This document shows, piece by piece, positions 9,863 to 25,191 of a stretch of 25,191 nt of DNA. How positions within the stretch are numbered: the first letter of the stretch is position 1; the number at the start of each line of letters is the position of its first letter. The notes under the pieces were generated by a model. The model worked only from the letters and a program-made list of their open reading frames with translations, was not told the origin of the DNA and searched no databases. Origin of the DNA: a virus; the IMG/VR virus record IMGVR_UViG_3300015611_000014, positions 1-25,191 of that record. One strand, written 5' to 3'. The translations under genes were made by a program, and so were the position numbers.

Positions 9863-9933
9863 ATTAAGTTCTTGACACATTCTCCCAGAGGATCGAGAAA
9901 TGGTGTCCTGAAACCGAAACTGAACTGAATCCG
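9863..9933 (+). promoter_or_regulatory. Short intergenic gap with TTGACA
   Basis: The 71-base gap after the large terminase holds TTGACA (9872-9877) and ends in a polypurine-like tract (GAAACCGAAACTGAACTG) before the next ATG. No good -10 is seen at 17 bases (GAGAAA). It may be the promoter for the recombination genes. Confidence 0.4.
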
Positions 9934-10832: not shown

Positions 10833-11053
10833 CCACGACCTCAGTCCGAGAGCAACTCGCATCCGCATTCCCGAGCCGAACCTTTGCCATCAGTGAAACG
10901 GCCTGGTATCACGGCAACATCTCTCACGAGCGCTACGTGGAATACGTAATCTCGGTCCAGCCGGGATTCGATAGAACCGAGTGTCAGAATTTCAGTGATG
11001 ACTCACTCGAAGCCTGCCTCGTCAAACTCAACGCAGCAGCAGGAGTCCAATAA
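10829..11053 (+). CDS. Small hypothetical protein (74 aa)
   Basis: MTTTSVREQLASAFPSRTFA onward, with a central YHGNISHERYVEYVISVQPG and an acidic end (DDSLEACLVKLNAAAG). ATGA overlap upstream and a one-base overlap with the next ATG (TAATG) place it in the recombination operon. No family recognised. Confidence 0.65.
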   Translation: MTTTSVREQLASAFPSRTFAISETAWYHGNISHERYVEYVISVQPGFDRTECQNFSDDSLEACLVKLNAAAGVQ

Positions 11054-11259
11054 TGTTTTCCATCCGTCAAAAAAGAGAGATCGCAGAGAAGGTGCAATCC
11101 ATTCTGCGTGCCACCAACCATCCCGAATTACCTGAAGGCGAGATAAGCTTCACGCTTCACGTCGAAGGCGCCGAGAGTTGGTCATGGGCTGACATTCGCA
11201 ACAATGGAGCCGTGGCTAATCCAGATTTCAACCCGCACAACGAACAATCAGACCCGTAA
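11053..11259 (+). CDS. Small hypothetical protein (68 aa)
   Basis: MFSIRQKREIAEKVQSILRA onward, a basic N-terminal helix, then a short strand region (EISFTLHVEGAESWSWADI) and an Asn-rich tail. GGAG precedes the start. It ends four bases before the RecT-like gene, with which it may be coupled. Function unknown. Confidence 0.65.
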   Translation: MFSIRQKREIAEKVQSILRATNHPELPEGEISFTLHVEGAESWSWADIRNNGAVANPDFNPHNEQSDP

Positions 11260-11263
11260 ATTT

Positions 11264-12448
11264 ATGGCCGAAGAAAATCAACAACTCGCAGTCCGCGAAA
11301 TCTCATTCGAGAACATGGAGAAGCTCGCGGTATCCGCGGCTGCCAGCGGCATGTTCGGCATCACAAAAAAGGAACAGGCCCTGTGTTTGTTCGCGATCTG
11401 TCAGGCCGAAGGAATGCACCCGATCCAGGCCCTGCGACGTTATCACCTGATCGACGGCAAGCCCGCCATGCGCGCTGACGCCATGCAGGGCGAGTTCATG
11501 GCCAAGGGCGGTGGAATTATCTGGCACGTCCGTACCGACGACGCTGTAGCGGCCACGCTGTTTGCCGACAAGACCAAAGTGGATGACGCCGCACGCAATA
11601 GAGCCATAAAACGGTTCGACCTGCTCTGGAGGCTTGAGTCAGCCGAAGACACTGAGGTCAGCGAGATCATGACCGCGATCGCAAATCTCAGTCGCGAGGG
11701 CGAGGAAACGATCCTGCGCACATACGAGGACGCTGAGGACAAGGGACTTACCTGGTCCTGGAAAAAGAAGGAGGGTGAGACCGGGTTCGAGAAAAAAGAC
11801 AAGGTGAATTGGAAGCAATCCCCCAGGCAGATGCTGACCGCGCGCGTGATCACCGAAGGCGTGCGCCTCATTGCTCCGGGTCTCATCGCCGGGATCTACA
11901 CTCCAGACGAGGTTGAGGACATCGTTCATGCCGAGAGAGTTGAACGGGAAGAGTTCGTCAGAACAGCTTTAGAAGAACCAGATCCGAGGGACAAGGAGGC
12001 GATCCAGCGCATGATTGATCAGTACGTCGCGGACGCAAAGACCGCGACTGGACACGAGAAGAGTCGCCTCCTGGGCCTGGCATCAGAGCTACGGGTTAAG
12101 CTCTCTGATTTGGAGCTGGAGGCCGATGAGATCCCAGGGATTAAATCAGCCAAGGAGATTGCAAGTGAACTACCTCACGCGGCCGAGCCCGAGCTGCAAC
12201 TCCATGGCGAGCCTAATCCCGTCCTGGTGCCATTGCCGAAATACAAGCTCCAGCACGTAAAGCAGAAATCACTGCTCGGGAAGGCCCTGGGCGACTTCAG
12301 TAAATCCGAGATCAAGGTCATCTACGAGAAGACTAAGCACGCCCTTACGAGCGAGGATGAACGCATTCGCAGCGAAGCCCAATACATCAAAGCGGCCTAC
12401 GACGCCCATGAGGCAAAGGCTACCGAGGAAAAAAATGAGCAAACCTGA
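11264..12448 (+). CDS. RecT-like annealing recombinase
   Basis: 394 residues from the ATG giving MAEENQQLAVREISFENMEK; an upstream extension from 11204 overlaps the previous gene and is not used. Key stretches are ALCLFAICQAEGMHPIQALR, YHLIDGKPAMRADAMQGEFM, and QSPRQMLTARVITEGVRLIA, a layout seen in RecT-superfamily single-strand annealing proteins. The C-terminus is long, acidic and helical. The role would be annealing complementary strands during recombination-dependent replication. The neighbouring coiled-coil gene and resolvase fit. Family match is by pattern, so moderate confidence. Confidence 0.6.
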   Translation: MAEENQQLAVREISFENMEKLAVSAAASGMFGITKKEQALCLFAICQAEGMHPIQALRRYHLIDGKPAMRADAMQGEFMAKGGGIIWHVRTDDAVAATLFADKTKVDDAARNRAIKRFDLLWRLESAEDTEVSEIMTAIANLSREGEETILRTYEDAEDKGLTWSWKKKEGETGFEKKDKVNWKQSPRQMLTARVITEGVRLIAPGLIAGIYTPDEVEDIVHAERVEREEFVRTALEEPDPRDKEAIQRMIDQYVADAKTATGHEKSRLLGLASELRVKLSDLELEADEIPGIKSAKEIASELPHAAEPELQLHGEPNPVLVPLPKYKLQHVKQKSLLGKALGDFSKSEIKVIYEKTKHALTSEDERIRSEAQYIKAAYDAHEAKATEEKNEQT

Positions 12449-12740
12449 ACTGTCTAAAATCCAAAATCGTCGGAAGCTGGTCGCGGTCCCGCACAAACGC
12501 GCCCTACAACTCCTGTTCGCGTCCAAGAGCTTGCAGACCTACGTCTGCGTGCCCGAGGCCGACCTGCCCGAGGGTGTGATCGTTCTCGGAGTTCACACCG
12601 ACTTCATCCGCAACGCTTTCGTCTTCGAGGTTTGCCATGCCTCGTTCGACGAGATCCCAGAAGGTGTAGAGGCACCGTTTATCACAGTGAATTGGACCTT
12701 TGTTGACCTGGCGCTGCCTGAGGGAAGGGAGAAGCCGTGA
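12435..12740 (+). CDS. Hypothetical protein (101 aa)
   Basis: Start chosen at ATG 12435, preceded by AGGAAAAA, giving MSKPELSKIQNRRKLVAVPH; it overlaps the RecT-like end by 14 bases. A strand-rich protein (TYVCVPEADLPEGVIVLGVH; AFVFEVCHASFDEIPEGVEA) with one acidic face. No family recognised. Its GTG-linked neighbour follows with a 4-base overlap. Confidence 0.65.
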   Translation: MSKPELSKIQNRRKLVAVPHKRALQLLFASKSLQTYVCVPEADLPEGVIVLGVHTDFIRNAFVFEVCHASFDEIPEGVEAPFITVNWTFVDLALPEGREKP

Positions 12741-12985
12741 GTGACAACGCTTTGGTACTAACAAAAAAGCGGGTCGCTGGCGACTTTGCTAATTACACGA
12801 AGACCAAAGACGGATACCAATGCAACACCTGCTGCGGAGTAATCATGGCCGCGCGAGTGTATCATCCAATCTGGGACGGCCCATTCCCTTGCTCTGGGTC
12901 CGGCAGGGTCCAAGTTGAGGAAGTCCCTTATTGCCCCACGTGTGAGGAAAAACCTTCAGAGAGCGGAGCGCCCATAACGGTATGA
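12737..12985 (+). CDS. Small zinc-finger-like protein
   Basis: 82 residues from a GTG (GTGA overlap; GGGAGAAG upstream). Cysteine pairs occur in YQCNTCCGV, PFPCSGSG and YCPTCEEK, giving a C..C(C)..C..C..C layout consistent with one zinc site. The N-terminus is basic (TKKRVAGDFANYTKTK). Probably a DNA- or protein-binding accessory. Function unknown. Confidence 0.65.
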   Translation: MSDNALVLTKKRVAGDFANYTKTKDGYQCNTCCGVIMAARVYHPIWDGPFPCSGSGRVQVEEVPYCPTCEEKPSESGAPITV

Positions 12986-13284
12986 TGACCGAAACCGAAC
13001 ACCTACTCATCTGCCTCAACGAGGAATGTGCCGAGATCGCCAAGCGAGTCGATAAAGCTCTGCGATTCGGACTCGACGATCGTGATCCAACCTTCGAAGG
13101 GGCGGAGCCTGAGCGCCTGCGTATCCAGCACGAGATTAACGATCTCATGGCAGTCGTCACCATACTCGAAAATCGCGGCATCATCGGTCTCTGCGCCGAC
13201 CCTGACCGTAGTCGAGCCAAACAGGCCAAGATCTTGAAGTTCATGGAGTACGCCCGTGACGCTGGCGCGCTGGAGCCGCAATGA
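12982..13284 (+). CDS. MazG-like nucleotide pyrophosphohydrolase
   Basis: 100 residues, all helical. LLICLNEECAEIAKRVDKAL followed by RIQHEINDLMAVVTILENRG gives the EExxE ... ExxD metal-binding pattern of all-alpha NTP pyrophosphatases (MazG/HisE type). These hydrolyse NTPs or dNTPs to monophosphates, in phages linked to nucleotide pool control or alarmone removal. The start uses the first of two ATGs, overlapping the previous stop. A single-domain short form is typical. Confidence 0.7.
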   Translation: MMTETEHLLICLNEECAEIAKRVDKALRFGLDDRDPTFEGAEPERLRIQHEINDLMAVVTILENRGIIGLCADPDRSRAKQAKILKFMEYARDAGALEPQ

Positions 13285-13315
13285 GCTACCAGGCTGGTTA
13301 AGTAGGTGAAATACG

Positions 13316-13531
13316 ATGCGAGCCAAGCCGACATTAGAGACATTTCGACAGCAGACAATGCAACGACAACCATTGTGGGCCACTGCCATGCTCGGCCTCT
13401 GTGTGATGACTGGCTTAATCGCGATGGCTTATGTCCGGGTGAAAACTAACGAAATACCGGCCGCATTGTTGGCGGTGACGAACTTGTTGGCGGGCGGTTT
13501 ACTTGCTGCGTGCATGAGGAGGCGAGTATGA
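13316..13531 (+). CDS. Small membrane protein with two TM helices
   Basis: 71 residues. A basic N-terminus (MRAKPTLETFRQQTMQRQ) precedes a first hydrophobic helix (WATAMLGLCVMTGLIAMAYV), a short polar loop, a second (IPAALLAVTNLLAGGLLAAC) and a basic end (MRRRV). AGGTG lies before the ATG. The size and topology suit a holin-like or other small phage membrane protein, but no lysis gene sits next to it. Function uncertain. Confidence 0.65.
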   Translation: MRAKPTLETFRQQTMQRQPLWATAMLGLCVMTGLIAMAYVRVKTNEIPAALLAVTNLLAGGLLAACMRRRV

Positions 13532-13566
13532 GTTACCGGATCAAATTCGAAAAGAGGTCGCTATGA
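13528..13566 (+). CDS. 12-residue mini-ORF, possible coupling peptide
   Basis: MSYRIKFEKRSL, read from an ATG preceded by a strong GAGGAGG. It overlaps the upstream stop as ATGA and the downstream DUF1643 start as ATGA. It may be a translated leader that delivers ribosomes to the next gene rather than a functional peptide. The alternative is chance. Confidence 0.35.
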   Translation: MSYRIKFEKRSL

Positions 13567-14087
13567 TCAGGAGCGGAGTCTGCGAATTCTCACCCTGCCG
13601 TCGCTACCGCTACGTGCTCATCCGGGAGTGGGAGACTTGTGAGCCCGTCGAGCCGAAGCTACCGGGCTCGTTCCTGCTCGTGATCGGCCTCAATCCCTCG
13701 ACGGCGGATGAGACCCAGAACGATCCCACAATCACTCGCTGTATCGGCTTTGCTCGTAAGTGGGGCTTCAGGAAGCTGGTGATGATGAACATCTTTGCCT
13801 TCCGAGCAACTCAACCTTGGGCGATGAAGAACCAGAAGAACCCGATAGGCGCCGTAAATGACCTACGATTGCTCGAAATCGGCCGGCACTGTCACGCCAG
13901 GGGCGGGATCGTTCTCGCAGCCTGGGGCACCCATGGCGCTCACGGGGACAGGGGATCTGTGGTTCAGGTGATGATGGCTCAAGCTGACGTTCCACTGTTT
14001 TGCTTAGGGAGGACTTCCAGGGGCCATCCTAAGCACCCGCTTTACGTCGCGGGCGACACTCAACCAATCCCATTCGCATTCCCATGA
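13563..14087 (+). CDS. DUF1643 family protein
   Basis: 174 residues. Family landmarks are SPCRRYRYVLIREWE, LVIGLNPSTADETQNDPTIT, RCIGFARKWGFRKLVMMNIF, NPIGAVNDLRLLEI, VLAAWGTHG and RGHPKHPLYV. These define DUF1643, often found in phages and islands, with unknown biochemistry. Full-length. It carries the 21-base match to the left arm at 13847-13867. A GAGG lies before the start. Confidence 0.9.
   Translation: MIRSGVCEFSPCRRYRYVLIREWETCEPVEPKLPGSFLLVIGLNPSTADETQNDPTITRCIGFARKWGFRKLVMMNIFAFRATQPWAMKNQKNPIGAVNDLRLLEIGRHCHARGGIVLAAWGTHGAHGDRGSVVQVMMAQADVPLFCLGRTSRGHPKHPLYVAGDTQPIPFAFP
13847..13867 (+). repeat. 21-base perfect match to 1534-1554 (copy 2)
   Basis: Lies inside the DUF1643 codons for GAVNDLR, a segment that is normally conserved in that family, so this copy is probably the source. 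Confidence 0.85.
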
Positions 14088-14281
14088 CGCTCCGAGATCT
14101 CAGCGCCGAAGAAGTAAAGAGATTACAGGCTCAGTGCAAAGATGACTTTGTTGCGACCAGGTCCTCTTCAGTGGACATACCTTTTAACCAATACGAGAAG
14201 ATCTGGTCAAGGGGACTCAAGGGCGGATTGGCTCTGTTCGATAAAACCGATGTAACAAACCTGTTCCTGAAACAGAAATGA
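14084..14281 (+). CDS. Small hypothetical protein (65 aa)
   Basis: MTLRDLSAEEVKRLQAQCKD onward, overlapping the DUF1643 stop as ATGA and the next start as ATGA. Predicted helix then basic loops (QYEKIWSRGLKGGLALF). No Shine-Dalgarno; coupling likely. No family recognised. Confidence 0.65.
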   Translation: MTLRDLSAEEVKRLQAQCKDDFVATRSSSVDIPFNQYEKIWSRGLKGGLALFDKTDVTNLFLKQK

Positions 14282-14526
14282 GTACTCCACTTGCACCCGG
14301 CGATCGCGTCGTCTTCGTCTCTGAGAAATCCGGCCTCAAACTGCGAGGCGTCGTCAGTGACACCCTTGGTCTCAAGACCCGCGGAGAGGAGATGCTCGTG
14401 CCCGTGGTGCGCCCACGCACCAGCAATAAGCCCGAGACCTGTAAAGCTGATCACGATGGGACGAAGCCTCGCGAGTTGAAGACGCGCTGGATCGAGCGAT
14501 CAAAACTGCGTAAACTGCCCGACTAA
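14278..14526 (+). CDS. Small basic protein with KOW/SH3-like start
   Basis: 82 residues, MSTPLAPGDRVVFVSEKSGL onward with a PGDRVVF..LRGVVSDT pattern typical of small SH3/KOW barrels, then a basic polar stretch and WIERSKLRKLPD. A binding role for nucleic acid or protein is plausible but not shown. ATGA-coupled to its neighbour. Confidence 0.6.
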   Translation: MSTPLAPGDRVVFVSEKSGLKLRGVVSDTLGLKTRGEEMLVPVVRPRTSNKPETCKADHDGTKPRELKTRWIERSKLRKLPD

Positions 14527-14527
14527 T

Positions 14528-15487
14528 ATGGCTCAAATAGTCAATTACAATGATCCCAGGGATCGCGTGCGTGCGGTGATCAATTTCAACTGCGGCAAGT
14601 GCGAGAAGAAGGTGGAGAAATGGCGGTTTATCGAGCGCAACGATCCCGTTATGGCCAGACAGGGGTTTTACTTCGAATGCCATGGGGACACCGACTTCCT
14701 GGAGATTAGTGACTCGATGTTGCTCGTGCCCAAGCGTGTCGCGGGATGGCAGCCCTTCAGTAAATTCGCGATCGCAAAGAGGCAAAAAGAGCAGGCCAAG
14801 CTTGAGCAGCTTGAGCGGGATCTACGCAAGAAAATACTGGAGGTGGAAGCTGCTGAGGTTCGACAGCTTAGCCCTACCGAGAGGCGTATTATTATAGAAG
14901 CGGCGTCCAGGAGACGCGAAGCGGCAATGAAGCAATCTATCGAGTACGGTGAAGACATTCGCTGGCGTGGTATTCGCCCAAAGTGCGCAGTCTGTGATCG
15001 GCCAGTCGATGCCATGCGGGCATTCAGAAATGAGATGACTCTCCAGACTGTGTTCCAATTTCGTTGCCACGGCAAAAGCGAGGACGTTCCTGTGGACGAA
15101 CAGGAGATGCGGCGAAGCCCTGATTTCGTGATGGCGTTGAAGAATTACATTCCGTTTGCGCGAGAGGCCGAAATACTTCGACAGGCCCAGATGACGCCAG
15201 GCGGCGAGTTCCTACGCGATCAGAATGGCAGCGTCATTGGTTACGTCAGCGCCAATGCAGGTGGAACTCCAGATCCTGATCCCAGTGGCAAGCCCTCGCT
15301 AAACCTCACGGAGTTCATGGCGAGATTGATGGACGATATTACGTCCGGCAATCTCACTGCCCGGCAAATATCAGCACTTTTGAACAGGGCGCCTGCTTTA
15401 CCCACTTCACAGCCGAAGCCGCCGCCCAAAAAGGAGACCTTGTTGATCGCGCCCACAAAGCCTCGCGTTATCATCCTGGAGGACTGA
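14528..15487 (+). CDS. Protein with two similar zinc-binding modules
   Basis: 319 residues. Two related modules are visible: residues about 20-53 (FNCGKCEKKVEKWRFIERND ... ECHGD) and a later one (PKCAVCDRPVDAMRAFRNEM ... RCHGK). Each has C-x2-C, a helix, then C-H-G. A long coiled coil (KRQKEQAKLEQLERDLRKKI) lies between them, and a proline-rich C-terminus (SQPKPPPKKE) follows. Internal duplication with a spacer suggests a dimeric or bridging zinc protein. It starts one base after the previous stop. Function unknown. Confidence 0.7.
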   Translation: MAQIVNYNDPRDRVRAVINFNCGKCEKKVEKWRFIERNDPVMARQGFYFECHGDTDFLEISDSMLLVPKRVAGWQPFSKFAIAKRQKEQAKLEQLERDLRKKILEVEAAEVRQLSPTERRIIIEAASRRREAAMKQSIEYGEDIRWRGIRPKCAVCDRPVDAMRAFRNEMTLQTVFQFRCHGKSEDVPVDEQEMRRSPDFVMALKNYIPFAREAEILRQAQMTPGGEFLRDQNGSVIGYVSANAGGTPDPDPSGKPSLNLTEFMARLMDDITSGNLTARQISALLNRAPALPTSQPKPPPKKETLLIAPTKPRVIILED

Positions 15488-15488
15488 C

Positions 15489-15740
15489 ATGGGCGTCCAA
15501 CTCGGCAAAGTGTTCAAGTATGGCGACGAGAAGGCAGCGGTTGTTACTTCCGTCTCGATCAGTCAAAACGTGGGTGAGTTCACGCGCCTCAGCTTGGAAC
15601 TGATCGTGCCCACCAGCTTCGGCCTTTCCGATGTCGGCAAGCTCGACCTCTCCAAGATCTTTCAATCCCCGACCGTGAACAAAGCCATCAACGATGAGAT
15701 CCAAACCCAAATGAGAAAGATCACCTTCGATGACAGGTAA
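15489..15740 (+). CDS. Small hypothetical protein (83 aa)
   Basis: MGVQLGKVFKYGDEKAAVVT onward with GGAGG before the ATG. Beta-rich start (AVVTSVSISQNVGEFTRLSL), then a helix (NKAINDEIQTQMRKITF). No family recognised. Overlaps the next gene by 11 bases. Confidence 0.65.
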   Translation: MGVQLGKVFKYGDEKAAVVTSVSISQNVGEFTRLSLELIVPTSFGLSDVGKLDLSKIFQSPTVNKAINDEIQTQMRKITFDDR

Positions 15741-16008
15741 CGAACTGCCGCCAGCTCCACCGTACCGGCCGCTGCCAAAGATCGTAGCTCGCCACCCAAA
15801 ACAAAAGCATGACCCGCTCCTGGTCGGGGATCGAATTAGTATTAAGATCCATGACCGACACTCAGCGCCCTTCTGGAGGCTCTACGAGGTCACTGTAATC
15901 GATGGCGGGGATTGTCGGCTCGTGACACCGAACAAACGCTTTGCCGTGAACATGAAAACGGAACTTGTTAAGAATATTCGCGACCTTCAGCGCAAGCTCC
16001 ATAGTTGA
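15730..16008 (+). CDS. Small hypothetical basic protein (92 aa)
   Basis: MTGNELPPAPPYRPLPKIVA onward: a proline-rich N-terminus, then a strand domain (GDRISIKIHDRHSAPFWRLY; EVTVIDGGDCRLVT) and a basic helix (ELVKNIRDLQRKLHS). No family recognised. Confidence 0.6.
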   Translation: MTGNELPPAPPYRPLPKIVARHPKQKHDPLLVGDRISIKIHDRHSAPFWRLYEVTVIDGGDCRLVTPNKRFAVNMKTELVKNIRDLQRKLHS

Positions 16009-16024
16009 AACAGGAACCTATCTT

Positions 16025-16276
16025 ATGGCCGAGAAGTTAGTAAAACAAAATGGCGGCATCCATGGAGTTGCGCTGTCGAAGGAAGAAATTAACTCTGGTG
16101 TCCAGGAAATGATCGCCCGGCACGTGGTCCAGCTCAGTGAACACGTCTCGTCCGTGCAGATAATTTGCACCAAGCTCGAAGCTGACGGGAACACGACCCT
16201 GTTCACATTCGGCAACGGAGATCTCTACGCTCGCGCCAAAGCCTGCGAGACCTTCCTGAACCGCATCCAGAGCTGA
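16025..16276 (+). CDS. Small hypothetical protein (83 aa)
   Basis: The start at ATG 16025 is supported by CAGGAACC upstream; a longer frame from 15965 overlaps the previous gene. MAEKLVKQNGGIHGVALSKE onward, helical middle (EEINSGVQEMIARHVVQLSE), strands (VQIICTKLEADGNTTLFTFG), helical end. No family recognised. Confidence 0.65.
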   Translation: MAEKLVKQNGGIHGVALSKEEINSGVQEMIARHVVQLSEHVSSVQIICTKLEADGNTTLFTFGNGDLYARAKACETFLNRIQS

Positions 16277-16277
16277 C

Positions 16278-16469
16278 ATGGCCACCAGGCGAACCAGGAA
16301 GGCCGCTGGCAGGTCCCTGATTGACTCCAGCTCCTCTGAGGCCCGGCGCCAGCCCCATGGCCATTACCTGTGCCCATGCGGGGCTCCACACGTCCAGGAT
16401 TCTGAGGACCCGCTCATCAATCGATGGTGCAACGAGTGCAAGTGCATCACTCAGCAAAAAAAGGTTTGA
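16278..16469 (+). CDS. Small zinc-ribbon-like protein
   Basis: 63 residues: basic N-terminus (MATRRTRKAAGRS), then YLCPCGAPHVQDSED and WCNECKCITQQKKV, giving CPC and CNECKC cysteine groups of a short zinc ribbon. Probably nucleic-acid binding. Its stop overlaps the TTGACA at 16466-16471. Confidence 0.6.
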   Translation: MATRRTRKAAGRSLIDSSSSEARRQPHGHYLCPCGAPHVQDSEDPLINRWCNECKCITQQKKV

Positions 16470-16498
16470 CACCAGTTACAGCTTCTGGCTGACTCCCT

Positions 16499-16663
16499 GT
16501 GCGCGATTCGGAACTCGAAAGCCTGTTGCGCAAACTGAAAACTGGCAATATGCTTCCATTAACAACCGTTCCGTCCCTCGTCTTGGGCGCCGCCAGAGCC
16601 TATTTCGAGATGTCCTCAAAAGGGGCAGGGCGAGGGACTGAGCGGTTGGAGGTCAGTAAGTGA
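16499..16663 (+). CDS. Very small protein (54 aa) from GTG
   Basis: The gap between two recognised genes holds an open frame starting at GTG (16499-16501), giving VRDSELESLLRKLKTGNMLP onward. It ends in TGA, overlapping the next GTG as GTGA. An in-frame TGA seven bases upstream rules out extension. A helical, basic-acidic protein; a frame on another register here (16321-16641) is a shadow. Confidence 0.5.
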   Translation: MRDSELESLLRKLKTGNMLPLTTVPSLVLGAARAYFEMSSKGAGRGTERLEVSK

Positions 16664-17133
16664 TCTCCCTGGAGGATTCGCCACCAAAAGGCGACGCTCA
16701 CAAAACTCTCCGCACATGCAAGTGCGGCACTAAATTCCGACCGAAGCCAATGGGTTACAATGCGGTCTATTGTAAACCCTCTTGTAAATCCAGGTTCAAG
16801 GCCGCGCCGAACCCGATCCTTAAAAAGGCGGGAGCAAAGCGATCTTACCAGAGGATCATGCTCGATCCAGATCGTCGTGAAGTTCGACGATACAACGCCA
16901 ACCCTTGTGCCTTGCAGTTCGATCACGAGGGACCTAAGACCGCCTCAATCTCGTCAATTCGCTCCAGCCAGAGACGCATTCTCACTGAGATTGAATCTGG
17001 CAAGTGCGTTCTACGATGTGCAAATTGTCACGCGGTTAAAACATGGGCCGATAAGAACGGTATCACTTACGTTCCTGGCATGGCTCAAGACGAAGAAATC
17101 TGGAATAAATTCTGGCAGGAGAAATGCGAATGA
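16660..17133 (+). CDS. HNH endonuclease-like protein
   Basis: 157 residues. An N-terminal zinc-ribbon-like part (TCKCGTKFRPKPMGYNAVYC, then KPSCKSRFK) precedes CALQFDHEGPKTASISSI, LTEIESGKCVLRCANCHAVK and TW. The DH ... ExxKC...C.NCH core is the HNH fold of phage single-strand nickases. GTG start, GTGA overlap with the previous frame. Likely a nicking or recombination nuclease. Confidence 0.75.
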   Translation: MISLEDSPPKGDAHKTLRTCKCGTKFRPKPMGYNAVYCKPSCKSRFKAAPNPILKKAGAKRSYQRIMLDPDRREVRRYNANPCALQFDHEGPKTASISSIRSSQRRILTEIESGKCVLRCANCHAVKTWADKNGITYVPGMAQDEEIWNKFWQEKCE

Positions 17134-18044
17134 GCACGATCGAACAAAATCACCCACCCTTAGGATATGCCCCTGGTTACGATGAAGCGGCAGCCTACGG
17201 AGACCCGAACGCATCAAGTTTTGGTATCACCAAAATCACCTTCGACCGTCTCATGAAGATGGAGAACTGTGATGCCTGTATCGCGCTCTACGCTTTCTTT
17301 TGTTACACCGCGAGATGGCAGAACACCGACCAAGCGAAATGCACAGTTGGCTACGCGAGCCGGGCTCTCGGATGGAGTCAGAGTAAAACCCAGCGAGCTA
17401 AGGCTCAATTAGTCGAAGCTGGCCTCGTTGAAAACATTAAACGTGTCGAGCAGGCCACAGGAAAAGTTGTGGGTTGGTTTGTGCGTGTTCGTCACGTCGT
17501 CCGATTGCGTCGTCACCCGGATATTAACGACCTCGTAGACTTCCACCCTGTCACCAGTGATAGGGTGGTCCACCCTGTCAAAAAACCAGGGGGTGGAGAT
17601 TTGACACCCAAATGCTTAAGAACTGGTAATGGAAATGCTTCAGAACTGGTAGGCGATCTCCCACTGAATGGATCAAAAGGGAGGAAGAAATTCACGCCAC
17701 CATCCATCAAGGAAGTCGAGGCACGCTGTATCGAGATCGGGCTCGATAAACGGGAGGCTGTGAAATTTTTCAACTGGCACGATTCCCGAGGTTGGAAAGT
17801 CGGTCGGATGCCGATGGTGAATTGGAAGTCTGCATTGAACACATGGAAGGCTCACCATGACGATCGCAAAGAGCAAAACAGCACCTCTCACACAAATAGT
17901 GCCGCGGCTCCACGCGGCTGGGATGAATGGCTGAAAACTAAACCCCAGTATCAGGAATTGTGCCGCGGCCTACCTTACAGGGCTTGCCGCGGATTTATTC
18001 AAACTGAGTTTATACAAGACAGGAAAACCCTCGCACAATCATGA
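17130..18044 (+). CDS. Replication initiation or helicase-loader-like protein
   Basis: 304 residues; the ATG at 17130 is preferred over 17124 because AGGAG lies eight bases upstream. N-terminal winged-helix features (FDRLMKMENCDACIALYAFF; VGYASRALGWSQSKTQRAKA QLVEAGLV) resemble lambda O-type initiators. The C-terminus has FTPPSIKEVEARCIEIGL, EAVKFFNWHDSRGWKVGRMP and MVNWKSALNTWKAHH, a DnaD/DnaT-like region found before DnaB in phages. The likely job is origin binding and helicase loading. Directly upstream of dnaB. ATGA-coupled. Confidence 0.75.
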   Translation: MSTIEQNHPPLGYAPGYDEAAAYGDPNASSFGITKITFDRLMKMENCDACIALYAFFCYTARWQNTDQAKCTVGYASRALGWSQSKTQRAKAQLVEAGLVENIKRVEQATGKVVGWFVRVRHVVRLRRHPDINDLVDFHPVTSDRVVHPVKKPGGGDLTPKCLRTGNGNASELVGDLPLNGSKGRKKFTPPSIKEVEARCIEIGLDKREAVKFFNWHDSRGWKVGRMPMVNWKSALNTWKAHHDDRKEQNSTSHTNSAAAPRGWDEWLKTKPQYQELCRGLPYRACRGFIQTEFIQDRKTLAQS

Positions 18045-18229
18045 TTCTCTGGAACAAAACCCAAGCGGAGTTGACGGCTGCTCTCGAAACGGCCCAGGGC
18101 GCGAAACGCCGCGAGATCCTCAAGGAGCTACAAAAACGCTGGGAAGAACAAACTAAGCGCCTGGTCCGCTGCGAGGACCACAGCATCTACACCATCCCTC
18201 GATTTGATTTTGAACTCTGCTACCGATGA
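18041..18229 (+). CDS. Small hypothetical protein (62 aa)
   Basis: MILWNKTQAELTAALETAQG onward, a helical, charged N-terminal part and an aromatic tail (IYTIPRFDFELCYR). ATGA overlaps on both sides link it between the initiator and DnaB. It may assist loading, but that is only positional. Confidence 0.6.
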   Translation: MILWNKTQAELTAALETAQGAKRREILKELQKRWEEQTKRLVRCEDHSIYTIPRFDFELCYR

Positions 18230-19704
18230 GGCATCACTCGAAGCCTCTTCACCCAAGCAAGGCCGGTAAGCAACCTCCTGCCCATAAATCTCGGCCTAAC
18301 GAGCGCCACAAGGACTCATTCACGGCCAAGAGCGAGGACATACACCGGACGCTACCGCACAGCGTTGAAGCGGAACAGGGCGTGATCGGCTCATGCTTGA
18401 TTTCCCCGCGTGATGTTATCGCGGAACTCATCGAGCTTGGTCTCAACGAAGAGTATTTCTACGTCCCCGCGCATCAGACAATCTGGCTCATTCTTGTAGA
18501 GTTATGGAAGGCGAATCACGCAATCGACCTCATCACTTTCACGCAGATCCTGCGCGATCGGAAAGGCAGCGCAGGCGGATCGATTCTCGACACCGTGGGT
18601 GGCGCTTCTGTAATAACAAGCCTATTCATATTTGTTCCGACAGCCGCAAATGTGATCTACTACCTGGAAATCGTCCGCGACAAATACATCCTCCGCCAAG
18701 TCATTGCCGGATGCACTGAGGCTGTGCGTCGCGCCTTTGAGGAGCAGGACGAGACATACAATCTCCTCGAAGAAGTGGAGCGCAATATCCTGAGTATCCG
18801 CCCATTTCAAGGAATCCGCGAAGCCAACATCAAAGAAGACGTGATGGCCGCTATCGAGGTCATTGAACAACTCTACGAGCGAAAAGGCGCCGTCAGCGGC
18901 ATCGCGACCGGATTCGCCGAGTTCGATCGGATGACTAGCGGCCTCCAGGATCAGGAAATGATTGTGATTGCGGCTCGACCCAGTATGGGAAAAACGGCAT
19001 GGGCTATGAATGTCGCCGAGCACGTAGCCATCAACCTCAAGCTCCCGGTTGGCGTATTCAGTCTGGAAATGAGCAGGGAGCAACTTGTGCAGCGCCTACT
19101 GTGCTCAGTGGCACGTATAAATTTACAGAAGGTTCGAGACGGCTTCCTATCTGAGCGCGACTTCCCGGCCCTCACCTCCGCCTCTTCAAAAATCGCCGAG
19201 TCAAAACTCCACATCAATGATCAAAAGCTTCAGATTGACGCCTTGGTCGCGACCGCGCGCCGGATGAAACAAAAGCACGACATTAAACTCTTTATCGTCG
19301 ATTATCTACAGCTCGTCACCGCCAGAGGATTCAAAGCCGACCACAGGCAGGCGGAGGTGGCGTACATCTCAGGCGCCCTCAAAGGGATCGCCAAAGATCT
19401 TCGTGTTCCAGTGCTTGTGCTGGCACAGTTAAATCGACAACCAGAGGGTCGTCGCGGCGGCAAGCCCCGCATGAGCGACCTCCGTGAATCTGGTGCGATC
19501 GAGCAAGACGCGGACATGATCGGTCTTTTGACCCGTGCCGAGCTTTACGAGGATGATGAGGAGATTCGTGCCGAGAAGGCTGGTGAAGCCGAACTCATTA
19601 TCGCCAAGCAGCGCAACGGTCCAGTTGGCGAGATCTTCCTCACGTTTTTGAAGGAGTATACAAGGTTCGAAGACCGCGCCCGAAACGTTCAAGGAGAATT
19701 GTGA
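18226..19704 (+). CDS. dnaB: Replicative DNA helicase, DnaB family
   Basis: 492 residues. A basic, disordered 40-residue N-terminal extension precedes the N-terminal collar domain (PHSVEAEQGVIGSCLISPRD). The RecA-like core has Walker A ARPSMGKTA (about 250-258), catalytic Glu281 (SLEMS), Walker B LFIVDYLQL (355-363), and RESGAIEQDADMI (420-432) with the arginine-finger region. It unwinds DNA 5'-3' as a hexamer at the fork. The N-terminal extension is unusual. The 60-base gap after it holds a hairpin and TTGACA. Confidence 0.95.
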   Translation: MRHHSKPLHPSKAGKQPPAHKSRPNERHKDSFTAKSEDIHRTLPHSVEAEQGVIGSCLISPRDVIAELIELGLNEEYFYVPAHQTIWLILVELWKANHAIDLITFTQILRDRKGSAGGSILDTVGGASVITSLFIFVPTAANVIYYLEIVRDKYILRQVIAGCTEAVRRAFEEQDETYNLLEEVERNILSIRPFQGIREANIKEDVMAAIEVIEQLYERKGAVSGIATGFAEFDRMTSGLQDQEMIVIAARPSMGKTAWAMNVAEHVAINLKLPVGVFSLEMSREQLVQRLLCSVARINLQKVRDGFLSERDFPALTSASSKIAESKLHINDQKLQIDALVATARRMKQKHDIKLFIVDYLQLVTARGFKADHRQAEVAYISGALKGIAKDLRVPVLVLAQLNRQPEGRRGGKPRMSDLRESGAIEQDADMIGLLTRAELYEDDEEIRAEKAGEAELIIAKQRNGPVGEIFLTFLKEYTRFEDRARNVQGEL

Positions 19705-19764
19705 ACTTGACACCCCAACCTTCAACGAGTGAAGTAGTGAACCGAGCTTCACTGAACCTAACCA
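19705..19764 (+). promoter_or_regulatory. Gap with TTGACA and hairpin before the KH gene
   Basis: This 60-base gap holds TTGACA (19707-19712), with only weak -10 matches at 17 bases, and a 7-bp stem AGTGAAG (19728-19734) / CTTCACT (19747-19753) with a 12-base loop, ending 11 bases before the ATG. The stem would sit in the leader of the KH-domain gene and could mask its start. No Shine-Dalgarno is visible. Confidence 0.45.
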
Positions 19765-20298
19765 ATGCCGAATCCGAAACTCGAAAAGTTACTGCGTGCA
19801 ATTATCGCGTGCGTGGGTCGAAAGACGACCGATCCCATCATCAACTGGGACGAGTCCGCTCATTGCTTTCACATCCAGGTCAATGCCCAGGACCAAGGTC
19901 GATTCATCGGGAAGAAGGGTGTTGTAATCTGGGCGCTCAAAGCCATTTTCTGGTACGCGGGGCTGGCCCAGATCACTCACACCGTAGACATCGATCTCCT
20001 GGAGCCCAAAGATCCAGACGGGGAGCGCCGCGCCACACCTTTCAAACCGAATCTGAATTGGGACACGGCCGAGATCGAGACGATGCTCAACGAGATCCTG
20101 GAGACATGCTTCAAAGAGTCACCGCGCTACGCCATTGGAAAACCGGAGCCGGCCGAGGCCGCGATCTCAATTATTTTGAATCCATACCTCAAGACCCCGT
20201 GCTCCGATCCAGATCTGGCTGGAGCCATCAAGGTCGTCGTTCACGCTGCAGGCATGGCTGATGGCTGCGCAATCAAAACGGAAATCCTCTGGCAATGA
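19765..20298 (+). CDS. KhpA-like KH-domain protein
   Basis: 177 residues. The N-terminal KH-like domain (about 1-66) has strand HCFHIQVN, then QDQGRFIGKKGVVIWALKAI, where GKKG (49-52) is the RNA-binding GxxG loop. This layout matches KhpA/YlqC, small bacterial RNA chaperones that bind mRNA and small RNA. KhpA itself is about 75-80 residues, so the remaining 110 residues (ETMLNEILETCFKESPRYAI; AIKVVVHAAGMADG) are an unrecognised second domain. A role in RNA regulation during infection is inferred. No Shine-Dalgarno. Confidence 0.65.
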   Translation: MPNPKLEKLLRAIIACVGRKTTDPIINWDESAHCFHIQVNAQDQGRFIGKKGVVIWALKAIFWYAGLAQITHTVDIDLLEPKDPDGERRATPFKPNLNWDTAEIETMLNEILETCFKESPRYAIGKPEPAEAAISIILNPYLKTPCSDPDLAGAIKVVVHAAGMADGCAIKTEILWQ

Positions 20299-20641
20299 TC
20301 GCATTGAAGAGCGCACACTGGAAGGGATGCGGGTCGTCCGCACTGGACGGGGGCTATACGAATGCTCCTCGGAGTCTAACCCAGGCCATTATTACCACGT
20401 GGACATCCTTGCTCTTGGGGGTCTCGGAGAATGTGATTGCTGGAACTTTATCGGACTCCGAAAGCCTCGCTGGAAGGCCGTCAAATGTCCCTACGACATT
20501 TTCCGCTGCAAGCACCTGCGCCGGGTAAGGAACCACGTCCTCGACCAAATTTTACACGCCTACATCGAACAAGAAACCAAACCGAGACCTAAATCCAATG
20601 AAACACGCCAGAGCAGATTACAACCGCATCCAGGACCCTGA
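20261..20641 (+). CDS. SWIM zinc-finger protein
   Basis: 126 residues with YYHVDILALGGLGECDCWNF and FRCKHLRRVRNHV: a CxC then CxH, the SWIM zinc-finger signature that binds DNA or protein, seen in recombination-linked proteins. Overlaps the KH gene by 38 bases, so the real start may be the later ATG at EGMRVV (20327). The C-terminus is basic and polar. Confidence 0.65.
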   Translation: MAAQSKRKSSGNDRIEERTLEGMRVVRTGRGLYECSSESNPGHYYHVDILALGGLGECDCWNFIGLRKPRWKAVKCPYDIFRCKHLRRVRNHVLDQILHAYIEQETKPRPKSNETRQSRLQPHPGP

Positions 20642-20852
20642 AGGGAAGATCCCAGCCGATGAGCCGGTGTTCATCCTTCGCGCGCAAGATCAGACGGCAG
20701 CCGCGACTGTTCGCGACTGGGCACGCCGCAATCAGCAAATCGCCGGACACGATTCCGCAGCCGTTGTGCTCGCCCTGAAATGGGCCGACGAGATGGATAA
20801 GTGGCCCGTGAAGAAGACAGCCGACGTGCCAGCAGCTCAACCCGTGGCCTAA
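20598..20852 (+). CDS. Small hypothetical protein (84 aa)
   Basis: MKHARADYNRIQDPEGKIPA onward with DEPVFILRAQDQTAAATVRD, a helical middle (SAAVVLALKWADEMDKW) and a Pro/Ala-rich end. Overlaps the SWIM gene by 44 bases. The DEPVF..R..D pattern recurs in small phage proteins of unknown role. Confidence 0.65.
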   Translation: MKHARADYNRIQDPEGKIPADEPVFILRAQDQTAAATVRDWARRNQQIAGHDSAAVVLALKWADEMDKWPVKKTADVPAAQPVA

Positions 20853-20874
20853 CGACAGCAACCACTTTACAATT

Positions 20875-21168
20875 ATGGCAAAACAACCCGATCTCGAAGG
20901 CATGGAAGGACCTGGCGTAGGTCAAAAACGGATTCCTGAGCTGGATAAGCTTATCGACAAATATGTGGTAGCTCGCGATAAGCGCATGGAGGAGTCGCCG
21001 AAAGAGAAAGCGGCGAAAACCTTCGTCATCGAAAAACTCCTGGCCCTCAAGGACGAGATCGGTGTCGATGCCAACGGCGAGATCGTGTACCGCCACGGCG
21101 ATGAAGTTGTCAGCCTGAAACCAGGAACTCCAAAACTCAGCATCCGATCCGCACCCGAGGAAGCATGA
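20875..21168 (+). CDS. Small hypothetical acidic/basic protein (97 aa)
   Basis: MAKQPDLEGMEGPGVGQKRI onward, with a long helix (ELDKLIDKYVVARDKRMEES through EKAAKTFVIEKLL) and strand end (GEIVYRHGDEVVSLKPG). The pattern resembles small phage proteins found beside recombination genes. Function unknown. Its stop overlaps the next ATG. Confidence 0.65.
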   Translation: MAKQPDLEGMEGPGVGQKRIPELDKLIDKYVVARDKRMEESPKEKAAKTFVIEKLLALKDEIGVDANGEIVYRHGDEVVSLKPGTPKLSIRSAPEEA

Positions 21169-21452
21169 CGGCTAAGTTTAGGACCGCGGTCCCTAGAGAG
21201 GATCTTCGAGTCTGTGCCTTCGAATCTGCTGGCGTAGAGGCACCTGAAGATATTCGAGTTGAATCCTTCTGGGATGAAGAAAGGCGCGGTAATGTCATCA
21301 GGGTTGGCCGATTTACTTCCGAAGAAGATACCAGGGAAGTGTTTATTCCATTGCAGGGAAATACCGACTTCGCAAAGTTTTTTAATGCGGAGATCGCGGC
21401 TATAAAAAACCTCCTCATTGAATTGAAACTTCTGCCGCCTACGATACCATGA
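21165..21452 (+). CDS. Small hypothetical protein (95 aa)
   Basis: MTAKFRTAVPREDLRVCAFE onward; GAGG before the ATG. Alternating strands (NVIRVGRFTSEEDTREVFIP) and a C-terminal helix (FAKFFNAEIAAIKNLLIEL). No family recognised. Coupled on both sides (ATGA). Confidence 0.65.
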   Translation: MTAKFRTAVPREDLRVCAFESAGVEAPEDIRVESFWDEERRGNVIRVGRFTSEEDTREVFIPLQGNTDFAKFFNAEIAAIKNLLIELKLLPPTIP

Positions 21453-21976
21453 CAACTTACGCACGCGGCGCCTACCGGGCTCCCCGGAAACAGGAGCGTG
21501 ATGCGCCATCGATTCTGCCGAAGACGTACGATCCACATGACGGCATGATCCGGTGGCGCAGCGGCCCCATCCCTGGACAACCCGATTACGCGCTCACGAA
21601 GACAGGGGCTTGTGTCCGCACTGGCAATCGCATCCTAAACAAAAAGGAGCGCCGCCGTGACAAGGCCGCCCAGGAAAAATACAGCGAGGGCTATCGATTC
21701 GTCTGCACCTGCAAAGCCTTAACCTTTCACTTCCCGTCAAATACAAAGGTGAAGGTTAAGGGATACGAGAAGCTCCAGGAGATGGAGACGTACGAGTGCT
21801 CTGTCTGTGGCGAACACTTCGACCGCGAACGCATTGATGCCGCTGTAGCCGCGCACCATGAAAGGGAAGAGAACAAGGATAAGCCTAAGGTCGTCAACTT
21901 TCCGAAACCAATACCGCTGCCGGAAAAACTCAACATATCGCCAAACATCAACCGACCCGAAGTAGACCGAATATGA
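21449..21976 (+). CDS. Basic protein with CxC/CxxC zinc-binding features
   Basis: 175 residues. A basic N-terminus (ARGAYRAPRKQERDAP) and RILNKKERRRDKAAQEKY precede FVCTCKALTFHFP and YECSVCGEHFDRERIDAAVA, a four-cysteine set (CTC ... CSVC) with following HH. Likely one zinc site. Proline-rich end. Function unknown. Confidence 0.65.
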   Translation: MTTYARGAYRAPRKQERDAPSILPKTYDPHDGMIRWRSGPIPGQPDYALTKTGACVRTGNRILNKKERRRDKAAQEKYSEGYRFVCTCKALTFHFPSNTKVKVKGYEKLQEMETYECSVCGEHFDRERIDAAVAAHHEREENKDKPKVVNFPKPIPLPEKLNISPNINRPEVDRI

Positions 21977-22281
21977 CTCACCACCTCAAATCCTGGCCAG
22001 GAGAATTTGCCCAGGTCCAATCCGGTGCCAAGTGCCACGAGATCCGTAACTGTGACGATCGCGAATTCACCAAGGGTGACGATGTGGTCTTGCGCGAGTG
22101 GAACCCGGCTGTGTACGAAGAAAATGAACCCTGCGTCGGCCGTGAGGCCGCGGAGAAGCGCGCGTACACTGGCCGTGAAGTCCTGCGACGGATTACCTAC
22201 GTCAGCAAGGCGGGATCGTGGGGCTTGCCGTCCAATATCTGCGTCTTCAGCATAAAACCATACGAAAGGACTGACTCATGA
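21973..22281 (+). CDS. DUF3850 (ASCH-like) protein
   Basis: 102 residues with the landmarks HHLKSWPGEFAQVQSGAKCH, EIRNCDDREFTKGDDVVLRE, YTGREVLRRITYV and NICVFSI. These match DUF3850, an ASCH/PUA-like beta-barrel thought to bind RNA. Many phages carry one. ATGA overlaps both sides. Confidence 0.85.
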   Translation: MTHHLKSWPGEFAQVQSGAKCHEIRNCDDREFTKGDDVVLREWNPAVYEENEPCVGREAAEKRAYTGREVLRRITYVSKAGSWGLPSNICVFSIKPYERTDS

Positions 22282-22553
22282 CACTGACACCCATTGGCGA
22301 CCGCGTGGTCGTGGAAAGAATTGTTGATGAACAAAAAGGCGCGGTCTTCATCCCCGAGAGCGCGCGTCGGCCATCGAACTGGGCCAGGGTAATGGTGCTC
22401 GGCTCGGGACTGCCTGGATTCAAATTCATCGTTAAGAGGGGGGACCTCGTGATGTTACCACCAAATCTCCGCACCGATCTCGATTTCTACGGTCGCAAGA
22501 TCGTCGTAATCCGCGAGCAGGATCTATTTGCCATCGCCGAAGCCGCTGCATGA
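22278..22553 (+). CDS. GroES-like co-chaperonin
   Basis: 91 residues beginning MTLTPIGDRVVVERIVDEQK G, then AVFIPESARRPSNWARVMVL and VKRGDLVMLPPNLRTDLDFY G..IVVIREQDLFAIAE. This follows GroES (Cpn10) from the conserved GDRVVVE start through the mobile loop to the DLFAI end. It would cap host GroEL to help fold phage proteins, as T4 gp31 does. No GroEL gene is in the window. AAAGGA lies before the ATG. Confidence 0.85.
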   Translation: MTLTPIGDRVVVERIVDEQKGAVFIPESARRPSNWARVMVLGSGLPGFKFIVKRGDLVMLPPNLRTDLDFYGRKIVVIREQDLFAIAEAAA

Positions 22554-23125
22554 CCTCCAGGACGTTTGTTGCGGTAGACCCTGGTGGTAGCGGCGCCGTG
22601 GCCTGGAGCAACCGCCACGGGGCTTTTGTGAAGCCCATGCCTGCGACTCGGCGCGACACCATCGATCTCATCAAGGAAACGCTCTACGAGGCCGTGGACC
22701 CGATCGCGTACATGGAAAAAGTCGCAGCCTTCATCCCTGACGGCGGGGCCGCGATGATGTTCGAGTACGGCCGCAAGGTCGAGCGTCCAGGCTGCATCCT
22801 GGAAATGCTTGGTATCCGCGTCATCGAGATCATTCCCCGGTCCTGGCAAAAAGAGCTAGGGCTCGGAAAGAGCGATCGCATCTCTCCTCCGCGAATGCCC
22901 AAGGGATTCAACCCAGCCCAAAAAACTGCGTGGCGGGTGCAAAATAAGGTTGCACTCGACGCCGCCAGGGTGCATAACGCCAAAGCCAAGAGGGATTGGA
23001 AGAACCGCCTCAAAGAAGAATCCCAGCGCCGATTCCCAAAACTGAATGTAACGTTAAAAACCTGCGACGCCCTTCTCCTTCTGGACGCCGCTATAAAACT
23101 CGAAGGAGAAAAGCTGAACCTATGA
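22550..23125 (+). CDS. RuvC-like Holliday-junction resolvase
   Basis: 191 residues. FVAVDPGGSGAVAWS (Asp10) opens an RNase H-like fold, IAYMEKVAAFIPDG gives Glu56, PRSWQKELGLG follows the third strand, and KTCDALLLLDAA gives Asp173. These are the three acidic metal ligands of RuvC-type resolvases, which cut branched DNA before packaging. The central basic insert (RVHNAKAKRDWKNRLKEESQ) is unlike bacterial RuvC. ATGA-coupled. Confidence 0.8.
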   Translation: MTSRTFVAVDPGGSGAVAWSNRHGAFVKPMPATRRDTIDLIKETLYEAVDPIAYMEKVAAFIPDGGAAMMFEYGRKVERPGCILEMLGIRVIEIIPRSWQKELGLGKSDRISPPRMPKGFNPAQKTAWRVQNKVALDAARVHNAKAKRDWKNRLKEESQRRFPKLNVTLKTCDALLLLDAAIKLEGEKLNL

Positions 23126-24039
23126 GAACAAAACCGAACCTGAGTAAATTACAGCCGCACCCTCTCGGGGCACTGTTTCCTCCAATGGAAGATCCGGCCT
23201 ACGAGCAACTCGTGACTGGATTGAAAATGAACGGCTACGACAAGCGTGAACCAATGACGCTCCTCGACGGCCAGATCCTCGACGGCAACAACCGTTATAC
23301 CGGCCTCAAAAAGGCACGCATCAAACCCACTCCAGATATGTTCGAGGAGTACAGGGGCGATGACCCGATCGGATTCATCATCCAAAAGAACCTCGCCCGC
23401 CGCAATCTCACGCCCAGCCAGGCGTCCATGCTCGCGGCCAATTTGGTCGAAAAGATGGAAGCGGCCGAGAAGGCGGAGAAAGAAGCCGCTGCCGCTGCCG
23501 GAACTGCAAATTCGCAGAAAGGCGGGAAGACGAAAAAGGCCAAGGGCGCGAAAGTAACCAAAGCCGCGAAGGCCCTCAAGGTCTCCCCAAGATCTGTTGC
23601 TGCAGCCCGGAAGCTCAAGAAAAAGAACCCCAAGGCTGCCGCCGATGTTGCAGCGGGCAAAAAGACTCTGCACAAGGCGACCACGGAGGCCGAGAGGCAG
23701 CAATCTGCCGAGGACGCCAAGACCGAGGAATTCACCAAGGCCACGACCCGCATCGATAAGACGCTGGGCGTTGGATTCGCCATCAAGGCCGCAGAGACCC
23801 TGCCCTCGAAGGACATCATGAAGTTGTCGCTGCTCGATGCCGAGGAGATGAAGCGGATCAAACCCTTCATCGAAGCCGGCTGGCCGCTGAAGAAGGCGCT
23901 AGGGTATCAGTCTGTTGATCTGACTCAGGCCCATCAGATCAAGCATCTGATCGAGCGCACGATCGCGCAGGGCGGCAAATACATGCTGCACCTCGATGGC
24001 TGGATCGTCGCCGTCGAGAAGAAGCCCGACGAGGCTTGA
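23122..24039 (+). CDS. ParB-like nuclease-domain protein
   Basis: 305 residues starting at ATG 23122 (ATGA overlap). LQPHPLGALFPPMEDPAYEQ, GYDKREPMTLLDGQILDGNN RY and FIIQKNLARRNLTPSQASML form a ParB/Srx-like domain with DGNNRY (54-59) as the conserved G..R box, then a helix-turn-helix-like region. A strongly basic Ala/Lys-rich linker (KKAKGAKVTKAAKALK) follows. The C-terminus is a separate domain (MKRIKPFIEAGWPLKKALGY). Likely DNA binding; partition, modification or nuclease roles are all possible. Confidence 0.75.
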   Translation: MRTKPNLSKLQPHPLGALFPPMEDPAYEQLVTGLKMNGYDKREPMTLLDGQILDGNNRYTGLKKARIKPTPDMFEEYRGDDPIGFIIQKNLARRNLTPSQASMLAANLVEKMEAAEKAEKEAAAAAGTANSQKGGKTKKAKGAKVTKAAKALKVSPRSVAAARKLKKKNPKAAADVAAGKKTLHKATTEAERQQSAEDAKTEEFTKATTRIDKTLGVGFAIKAAETLPSKDIMKLSLLDAEEMKRIKPFIEAGWPLKKALGYQSVDLTQAHQIKHLIERTIAQGGKYMLHLDGWIVAVEKKPDEA

Positions 24040-24308
24040 TGCCAGCCAGCGAGACAGAGCAAAAGTGCGTGAACTGCGGTGACGTAGTGGGCGACAAACC
24101 CCACTACGTCCCGCAGGGCGTCATTGTGCCCGGCTTCTTCCGAATGATGTGGACCTGCAAACGCAGTCCAGAGCGAGAGGCGAAACTCCAAAAGGTCCAC
24201 GGCAAAGAATGCGAGCTACGGCGCTGTGAAAATTGTCATGAGACGATGGTTCTTCCCACGGGCAAGTGTATGCAGTGCGGGCATTACCAGGGCATTGTCG
24301 CTCTATGA
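24039..24308 (+). CDS. Small protein with two CxxC zinc sites
   Basis: 89 residues; ATG 24039 overlaps the ParB-like stop (TGATG). CVNCGDVVGDKPHYVP, TCKRSPEREAKL, CENCHETMVLP and CMQCGHYQG make two or more zinc knuckles. It is coupled to the HNH-like gene by ATGA. Confidence 0.65.
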   Translation: MPASETEQKCVNCGDVVGDKPHYVPQGVIVPGFFRMMWTCKRSPEREAKLQKVHGKECELRRCENCHETMVLPTGKCMQCGHYQGIVAL

Positions 24309-24679
24309 GCATGATCCGGCCGCGGCCGATGCCAGTATTTCCGAAACCGAAGCGTGAGCCGGTTCGACGCTTCGCCAATGGATTCCCTGTGGGTAAGCGA
24401 ACAAAGAAGCGCGAGGCCGTAAATCACAAGCTCAATCGGACTCTGCGGATCAAGGAGTGCGAGCTTAAGCTGCCGGGGTGTTGGAGGATTGTGTATCTAG
24501 GTTGGGCGCACTCAAAAAAGAGCCGGTTCCTCGTCACGCGAAAGGATTGGGAAGAGGCCGCGCGAGCGTGCCAGCACTGTCACGACATCATCGAGGCGTG
24601 GCCGCACAAGAAAATGGAAGCCTTCATCAAAGAGGTGATCGCGAAGAGAAAACCACAGGCGCCCTCCAGGAGTTACTGA
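24305..24679 (+). CDS. HNH/NinG-like nuclease
   Basis: 124 residues from ATG 24305. The N-terminus is basic (PKPKREPVRRFANGFPVGKR). ECELKLPGCWRIVYLGWAHS then SRFLVTRKDWEEAARACQHC and HDIIEAWPHKKMEAFI make a zinc-supported WAHS ... AC.HCH core seen in phage NinG/HNH proteins. A recombination role is plausible. The start overlaps the previous stop (ATGA); a longer frame from 24266 overlaps the neighbour. Confidence 0.7.
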   Translation: MSMIRPRPMPVFPKPKREPVRRFANGFPVGKRTKKREAVNHKLNRTLRIKECELKLPGCWRIVYLGWAHSKKSRFLVTRKDWEEAARACQHCHDIIEAWPHKKMEAFIKEVIAKRKPQAPSRSY

Positions 24680-24680
24680 A

Positions 24681-25191
24681 ATGATTCTCTTGACTATGCA
24701 CAGCCAGGCGTACTCCGACTTAGCTGATGCAACGCTCCCCAGTAAAACAACCTACTGCTTGCGCCACGGCATAAGTTTGATCGTCCGGGAACACCAGGAG
24801 CCAGTGAGTTGCTGGCAGCGACCCGAGGCATGGCTAGAGAGTCTCAAGAGCCTACCATTAAACGACTGGATGTTATTCATGGGGACGGACGCCATGATCA
24901 CAAATCCAGATTACGATGTACGACAACTTTGTTTCCACGATGCAGATTTTGTATTCTGCGCTGACGGAAATGGACTTCAGTGCGATGTATGGTTGATGCG
25001 CTCGTGTCCAGACACGATCAATTACATGACCCGCGTCCTTCGCCACCAAGAGGAAATCACAAGCAATGAGCAGGACGCCCTAAGTGTAGAATTGAGCGGC
25101 TGCCGCAACTACACTGAGTTCATAATCCAGCTTGGCGATCTCAAGCAAGATGGGGAACCTCCAAGCCTATCACTCCTCAATCGGCTTCAAG
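24681..25191 (+). CDS. GT-A glycosyltransferase (GT34-like), 3' end beyond window
   Basis: At least 170 residues, open to the window edge, not closed by a stop. AGGAG lies before the ATG. MILLTMHSQAYSDLADATLP, YCLRHGISLIVREHQE and NDWMLFMGTDAMITNPDYD carry a Rossmann-like start and a D-x-D-like GTDAM box (Asp70). DGNGLQCDVWLMRS then NEQDALSVE matches the G.N.G..L.R and Q.D.A motifs of GMA12/MNN10-like (GT34) galactosyltransferases. Donor and acceptor are unknown; modification of phage DNA, capsid or host surface are all possible. Confidence 0.7.
   Translation, partial: MILLTMHSQAYSDLADATLPSKTTYCLRHGISLIVREHQEPVSCWQRPEAWLESLKSLPLNDWMLFMGTDAMITNPDYDVRQLCFHDADFVFCADGNGLQCDVWLMRSCPDTINYMTRVLRHQEEITSNEQDALSVELSGCRNYTEFIIQLGDLKQDGEPPSLSLLNRLQ

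Follow-up and report, generated by a model that had tools for sequence, protein, structure and literature searches.

Introduction

In bacteria, the KH proteins KhpA and KhpB bind RNA (PMC9037510, PMC12456014), and KhpA homodimerises as well as pairing with KhpB (PMC12456014). An arrangement of two contiguous type II KH domains has been described for the archaeal protein MTH1203, in which one of the two domains lacks the GXXG loop and had been overlooked by sequence analysis (PMC3095777). This study concerns a phage gene whose product resembles both systems. The gene lies on a 25,191-base virus record, referred to below as the window, that also carries genes for small and large terminase subunits, a RecT-like protein, DnaB, a GroES-like protein and a RuvC-like resolvase. 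The gene product is probably a tandem KH protein, consisting of a working KhpA-like KH domain with a GKKG loop followed by a loop-less type II KH domain, and would form a cassette with a SWIM-type protein.

Results

In the first-pass annotation, the KH gene had been given the span 19705–20298, but not all of this span is coding: positions 19705–19764 are a leader that fills the 60-nt gap between dnaB and the KH gene (Table 1). The start was placed at 19765 rather than at 19705 because an in-frame TAA precedes this ATG and because the N-terminal sequence MPNPKLE is conserved, being identical in the homologue L002. The KH gene is real and under purifying selection, with differences distributed over the three codon positions as 50/32/86 and dN/dS values of approximately 0.15 in domain 1 and 0.25 in domain 2.

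Table 1. Positions of the KH gene, its predicted domains and its surroundings in the window.
Feature	Position	Strand	Evidence
Tandem KH protein, whole CDS (177 aa)	19765..20298	+	ORF; 67%-identical homologue L002 with the same start; 9-member family
Domain 1, residues 1–84, predicted KhpA/KhpB-type type II KH	19765..20016	+	PF13083, hhalign, AlphaFold2
GKKG, putative nucleic-acid-binding loop, residues 49–52	19909..19920	+	Within DQGRFIGKxG, family alignments
Domain 2, residues 97–177, predicted degenerate type II KH without GxxG	20053..20295	+	hhalign, prediction
SDPD in place of the expected GxxG, residues 147–150	20203..20214	+	Family alignment
SWIM-type zinc-finger-like gene, 126 aa	20261..20641	+	Synteny; CxC, CxH
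DnaB-like helicase, directly upstream of the leader	18226..19704	+	PF03796, 3.3e-94; synteny
Inverted repeat AGTGAAG (19728–19734) / CTTCACT (19747–19753)	19728..19753	+	Present, not above chance
TTGACA box	19707..19712	+	8 of 9 family leaders; expected approximately 0.008 per 70-nt leader

Profile comparisons and structure prediction indicated that domain 1 is a KH domain of the KhpA/KhpB type with an intact GKKG loop, in agreement with the first-pass annotation. PF13083 matched all six family members that were scanned (best 5.1e-8); the match of the window protein (E=1.6e-4, 21.9 bits) and that of L002 (22.2 bits) lay below the gathering cut-off of 32.1 bits. Comparison of domain 1 with a phage KhpA profile by hhalign yielded P=7.9e-16. 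The loop motif DQGRFIGKxG was invariant in all nine aligned members. Structure prediction, which had been proposed as a check that might reveal a non-KH fold, returned the secondary-structure order of a type II KH domain: AlphaFold2 predicted a helix (4–17), two strands (25–29 and 34–38), two further helices (41–48 and 50–70) and a strand (75–79), with the GKKG loop located between the two latter helices. Sequence matches of the family profile in the PDB were mostly to KH proteins (KhpB 9lrg, 3gku, KhpA 7xqc) and all weak, and no PHROG family matched the KH protein.

The remainder of the protein had been described as an extra domain of 110 residues. An extra domain is indeed present, C-terminal to a short linker and approximately 80 residues long; rather than a new domain, it appears to be a degenerate second KH. 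Against the phage KhpA profile, domain 2 scored 31.5 in hhalign (P=5.8e-6), while the maximum among 100 column-shuffled controls was 15.7. Direct profile comparison of domain 1 with domain 2 was weak (P=0.07) and in the right register. In most members SDPx occupied the GxxG position, and P149 was invariant. When supplied with six family sequences, AlphaFold2 gave a model (pLDDT 77, pTM 0.77) in which the KH secondary-structure order occurred twice, the second time as a helix (101–115), strands (121–124 and 131–138), helices (140–143 and 151–163) and a strand (169–176). With two sequences only, pLDDT was 38 and the fold search based on that model was uninterpretable. Both the profile match, far above that of the shuffled controls, and the predicted repetition of the fold identify domain 2 as another type II KH domain, one whose loop has been lost. 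A PDB fold search with the model gave no match at E≤0.001 and TM-scores against solved tandem KH proteins were approximately 0.3 over the whole length, so that the packing of the two domains in the model is tentative.

Protein-only searches retrieved a single homologue, L002. Searching for the loop with a degenerate DNA pattern revealed further two-domain members, and a profile search still more, so that the final alignment contained nine distinct members, all from IMG/VR environmental phage contigs. Neither the 50,697 named phage records nor the GTDB species contigs yielded a two-domain member, and no additional KH members came from scans with the DnaB, SWIM or resolvase proteins. The pattern scan of IMG/VR returned at least 119 stretches; these included two-domain members as well as many KhpA-like proteins with a single domain. 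Among the 50,697 named phage records there were 12 weak KhpA-like matches, most of them on unannotated metagenomic or short records. Acidobacteriota phage Tunturi_5 was the only complete, annotated named phage with such a match, which fell on a hypothetical protein. The matching region overlaps gp147 (PP885688.1, 106495–106767; L222), which is annotated as hypothetical. By sequence, KhpA-like genes are thus common on environmental phage contigs and rare in named phages, and the earlier expectation that this is not a routine phage gene held for the latter but not for IMG/VR.

Single-domain KhpA-like genes occurred on about 100 IMG/VR contigs among the matches listed (L087–L204), often near genes that, judged from their sequences, are Hsp20-, HU- or GroEL-like. 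Three representative proteins of this set had no convincing PHROG family. The usual neighbour of khpA in bacteria is the gene for ribosomal protein S16. An origin of the KhpA genes in IMG/VR from host contamination was rejected, as ribosomal S16 was found in none of 20 contigs tested; a terminase profile matched eight of 20 such contigs and, since it also matched bacterial controls, lends weak support.

A SWIM-type gene was located downstream of the KH gene in every locus of the two-domain family; it runs off the contig in L213 and L214, and an extra open frame lies between the two genes in L218. In the window it overlaps the 3' end of the KH gene by 38 nt (20261–20298). Within this overlap, the DNA encoding the KH C-terminus shows unusually high conservation. 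The CxC (residues 58–60) and CxH (residues 83–85) of the SWIM-type protein were invariant in seven members. PF04434 matched the homologues in L216 (20.2 bits, the only one above the cut-off) and L218 (16.9 bits, below it), and Pfam gave no match for the window's own SWIM-type protein. Near single-domain KhpA-like genes, a SWIM-like motif was seen at one locus only (L113), the recurrent neighbours there being other families. Upstream, dnaB was the neighbour only in the window phage and in L002; the other members had a terminase gene or leftward genes in this position. The KH and SWIM genes were taken as a unit because the SWIM gene is constant in two-domain loci, the upstream gene varies and a SWIM-like motif is rare beside single-domain KhpA-like genes. 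Linkage is the evidence that suggests a physical partnership of the two proteins. Further downstream, the window carries a phage gene for a GroES-like co-chaperonin at 22278–22553 (phrog_3188, 1.8e-8).

Apart from a conserved TTGACA box, the leader is unremarkable for an intergenic region, and its hairpin is incidental in the window. The inverted repeat recorded upstream of the start in the first-pass annotation is present, but neither its folding nor its length exceeded chance: folding z was −0.8 to −1.0, 43% of GC-matched 51-nt windows of the contig folded at least as well, and perfect inverted repeats of at least 7 bp occurred in 6.3% of all 60-nt windows in the contig. In L002, a strong hairpin ends at the ATG (z −4.5 to −6; 0.9% of GC-matched windows). 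The other family leaders had z values of −2.5 to +1.2, and those of L214 (+1.2) and L216 (+0.5) contained no hairpin. Across the homologues (z −4.5 to +1.2), no leader structure was both conserved and above chance.

TTGACA was absent only from L218, in which the KH gene overlaps the end of the terminase gene. Six of the eight TTGACA leaders (L213, L214, L215, L216, L217 and L219) had CCGAYCYGAMC just before the ATG, between the box and a start codon located 29–32 nt from it; this motif was unmatched in the window and in L002. A sigma-70 promoter was rejected because the conserved TTGACA was accompanied by no −10 hexamer, either by scan or, in these six leaders, by eye. No terminator was found in the leader. 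Immediately before the leader, a start codon overlaps the dnaB stop (GTGA/ATGA; window 19701–19704, L002 5942–5945) and begins a frame that reads past the KH start, with no conservation of this frame downstream. A leader peptide and a translated dnaB-KH fusion were rejected: the frame of this start codon relative to the KH gene differs between the two phages (+1 versus +2), which argues against a conserved frameshift or fusion.

The lack of a Shine-Dalgarno sequence before the KH start was confirmed and is ordinary, as most gene starts in the window have three or four matching bases or none. In positions 6881–24681 of the window, CYGAA and AACC were approximately 5- to 6-fold enriched in the 22 nt that precede start codons (CYGAA at 10 of 36 starts versus 1.7 expected, AACC at 11 of 36 versus 2.1, with starts hand-picked from the ORFs). 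A motif of the CYGAA/AACC type is possibly the phage's own start-site signal, replacing Shine-Dalgarno.

Discussion

By analogy with known KH proteins, domain 1 of the tandem KH protein would bind single-stranded nucleic acid via its GKKG loop, in the groove typical of KH domains. RNA is a likelier ligand than ssDNA because the nearest relatives are KhpA and KhpB, while ssDNA is an option because the phage KH gene lies among replication genes. Domain 2 may be a structural partner that does in one chain what the second subunit does in the KhpA dimer. The SWIM protein would act together with the KH protein as a two-gene cassette, situated here among replication and recombination genes. A more specific proposal, which we put forward tentatively, is that KH and SWIM proteins constitute an undescribed cassette of environmental phages forming a dedicated RNA- or ssDNA-binding complex, in which the dead KH domain replaces the dimer partner.

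Binding of ssDNA is known for KH domains, and recombination complexes can include SWIM proteins. The KH protein could accordingly be an ssDNA-binding accessory of replication or recombination that works with the SWIM protein on phage DNA. The neighbours in the window, which encode DnaB, a RecT-like annealing protein and a RuvC-like resolvase, fit this role, but the other family members have terminase or leftward genes rather than dnaB upstream, and the sequence kin KhpA and KhpB are RNA binders (PMC9037510, PMC12456014); we regard it as rather unlikely. If RNA is the ligand, the protein might act as an RNA chaperone of the phage and control its own synthesis through binding to the hairpin in its leader, as the first-pass annotation suggested. 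The known RNA binding of the KH family, the inverted repeat just upstream of the start and the strong hairpin at the ATG of L002 would suit such a mechanism. In an alignment made by eye, the inner stem AGGTAA/TTTACC of L002 corresponds to AGTGAA/TTCACT in the window with two paired changes, a lead from two sequences. The hairpin in the window is nevertheless within chance and the leaders of L214 and L216 are devoid of one, which leaves autoregulation via the leader unsupported and, in our judgement, very improbable. Even more far-fetched is a dominant-negative role, in which the phage protein would imitate KhpA and disturb the KhpA/KhpB dimer of the host: KhpA forms homodimers and also partners with KhpB (PMC12456014), and the phage protein could pair through either of its domains, but the fused second domain might itself occupy the dimer surface.

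Whereas KhpA and KhpB are candidate RNA matchmakers in bacteria, the KhpA-like match in a complete annotated phage is only a 'hypothetical protein'. The many environmental phage contigs with KhpA-like genes suggest that this type of RNA-binding protein has escaped notice in phages. With its constant pairing, the putative KH-SWIM cassette represents a compact two-gene system amenable to expression and testing.

Compared with known systems, the phage protein shares with KhpA (YlqC; PF13083) a type II KH domain with an IGKxG loop, PF13083 being matched in all scanned members. KhpA is a single domain of approximately 80 aa, whereas the 177-aa phage protein has a second, loop-less KH domain fused to the first and a SWIM gene downstream. 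The predicted fold and the GxxG agree with membership of KhpA; because the PF13083 score is below the curated cut-off and the size is not that of a single domain of 75–90 aa, the protein is called KhpA-like rather than KhpA. Its loop sequence GRFIGKxG is also that of KhpB (Jag/EloR), which reads GRFIGKEGRT in Thermus thermophilus, but R3H and Jag_N had no Pfam match in the phage protein, whose second domain is KH-like. The single-domain KhpA-like proteins of IMG/VR likewise combine a KH domain with IGKxG, but are mostly 80–110 aa long and have other recurrent neighbours. Over its full length, the model matched that of an uncharacterised protein of an uncultured Caudovirales phage (BFVD A0A6J5PF67; E 1.7e-5, TM 0.62/0.64); the two proteins are 18% identical. 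Two contiguous type II KH domains are found in the KHa-KHb pair of the archaeal beta-CASP protein MTH1203 and in KH1-KH2 of NusA. MTH1203 has its loop-less domain in first place and a nuclease after the pair, whereas the phage protein consists of the pair alone, with the loop-less domain in second place.
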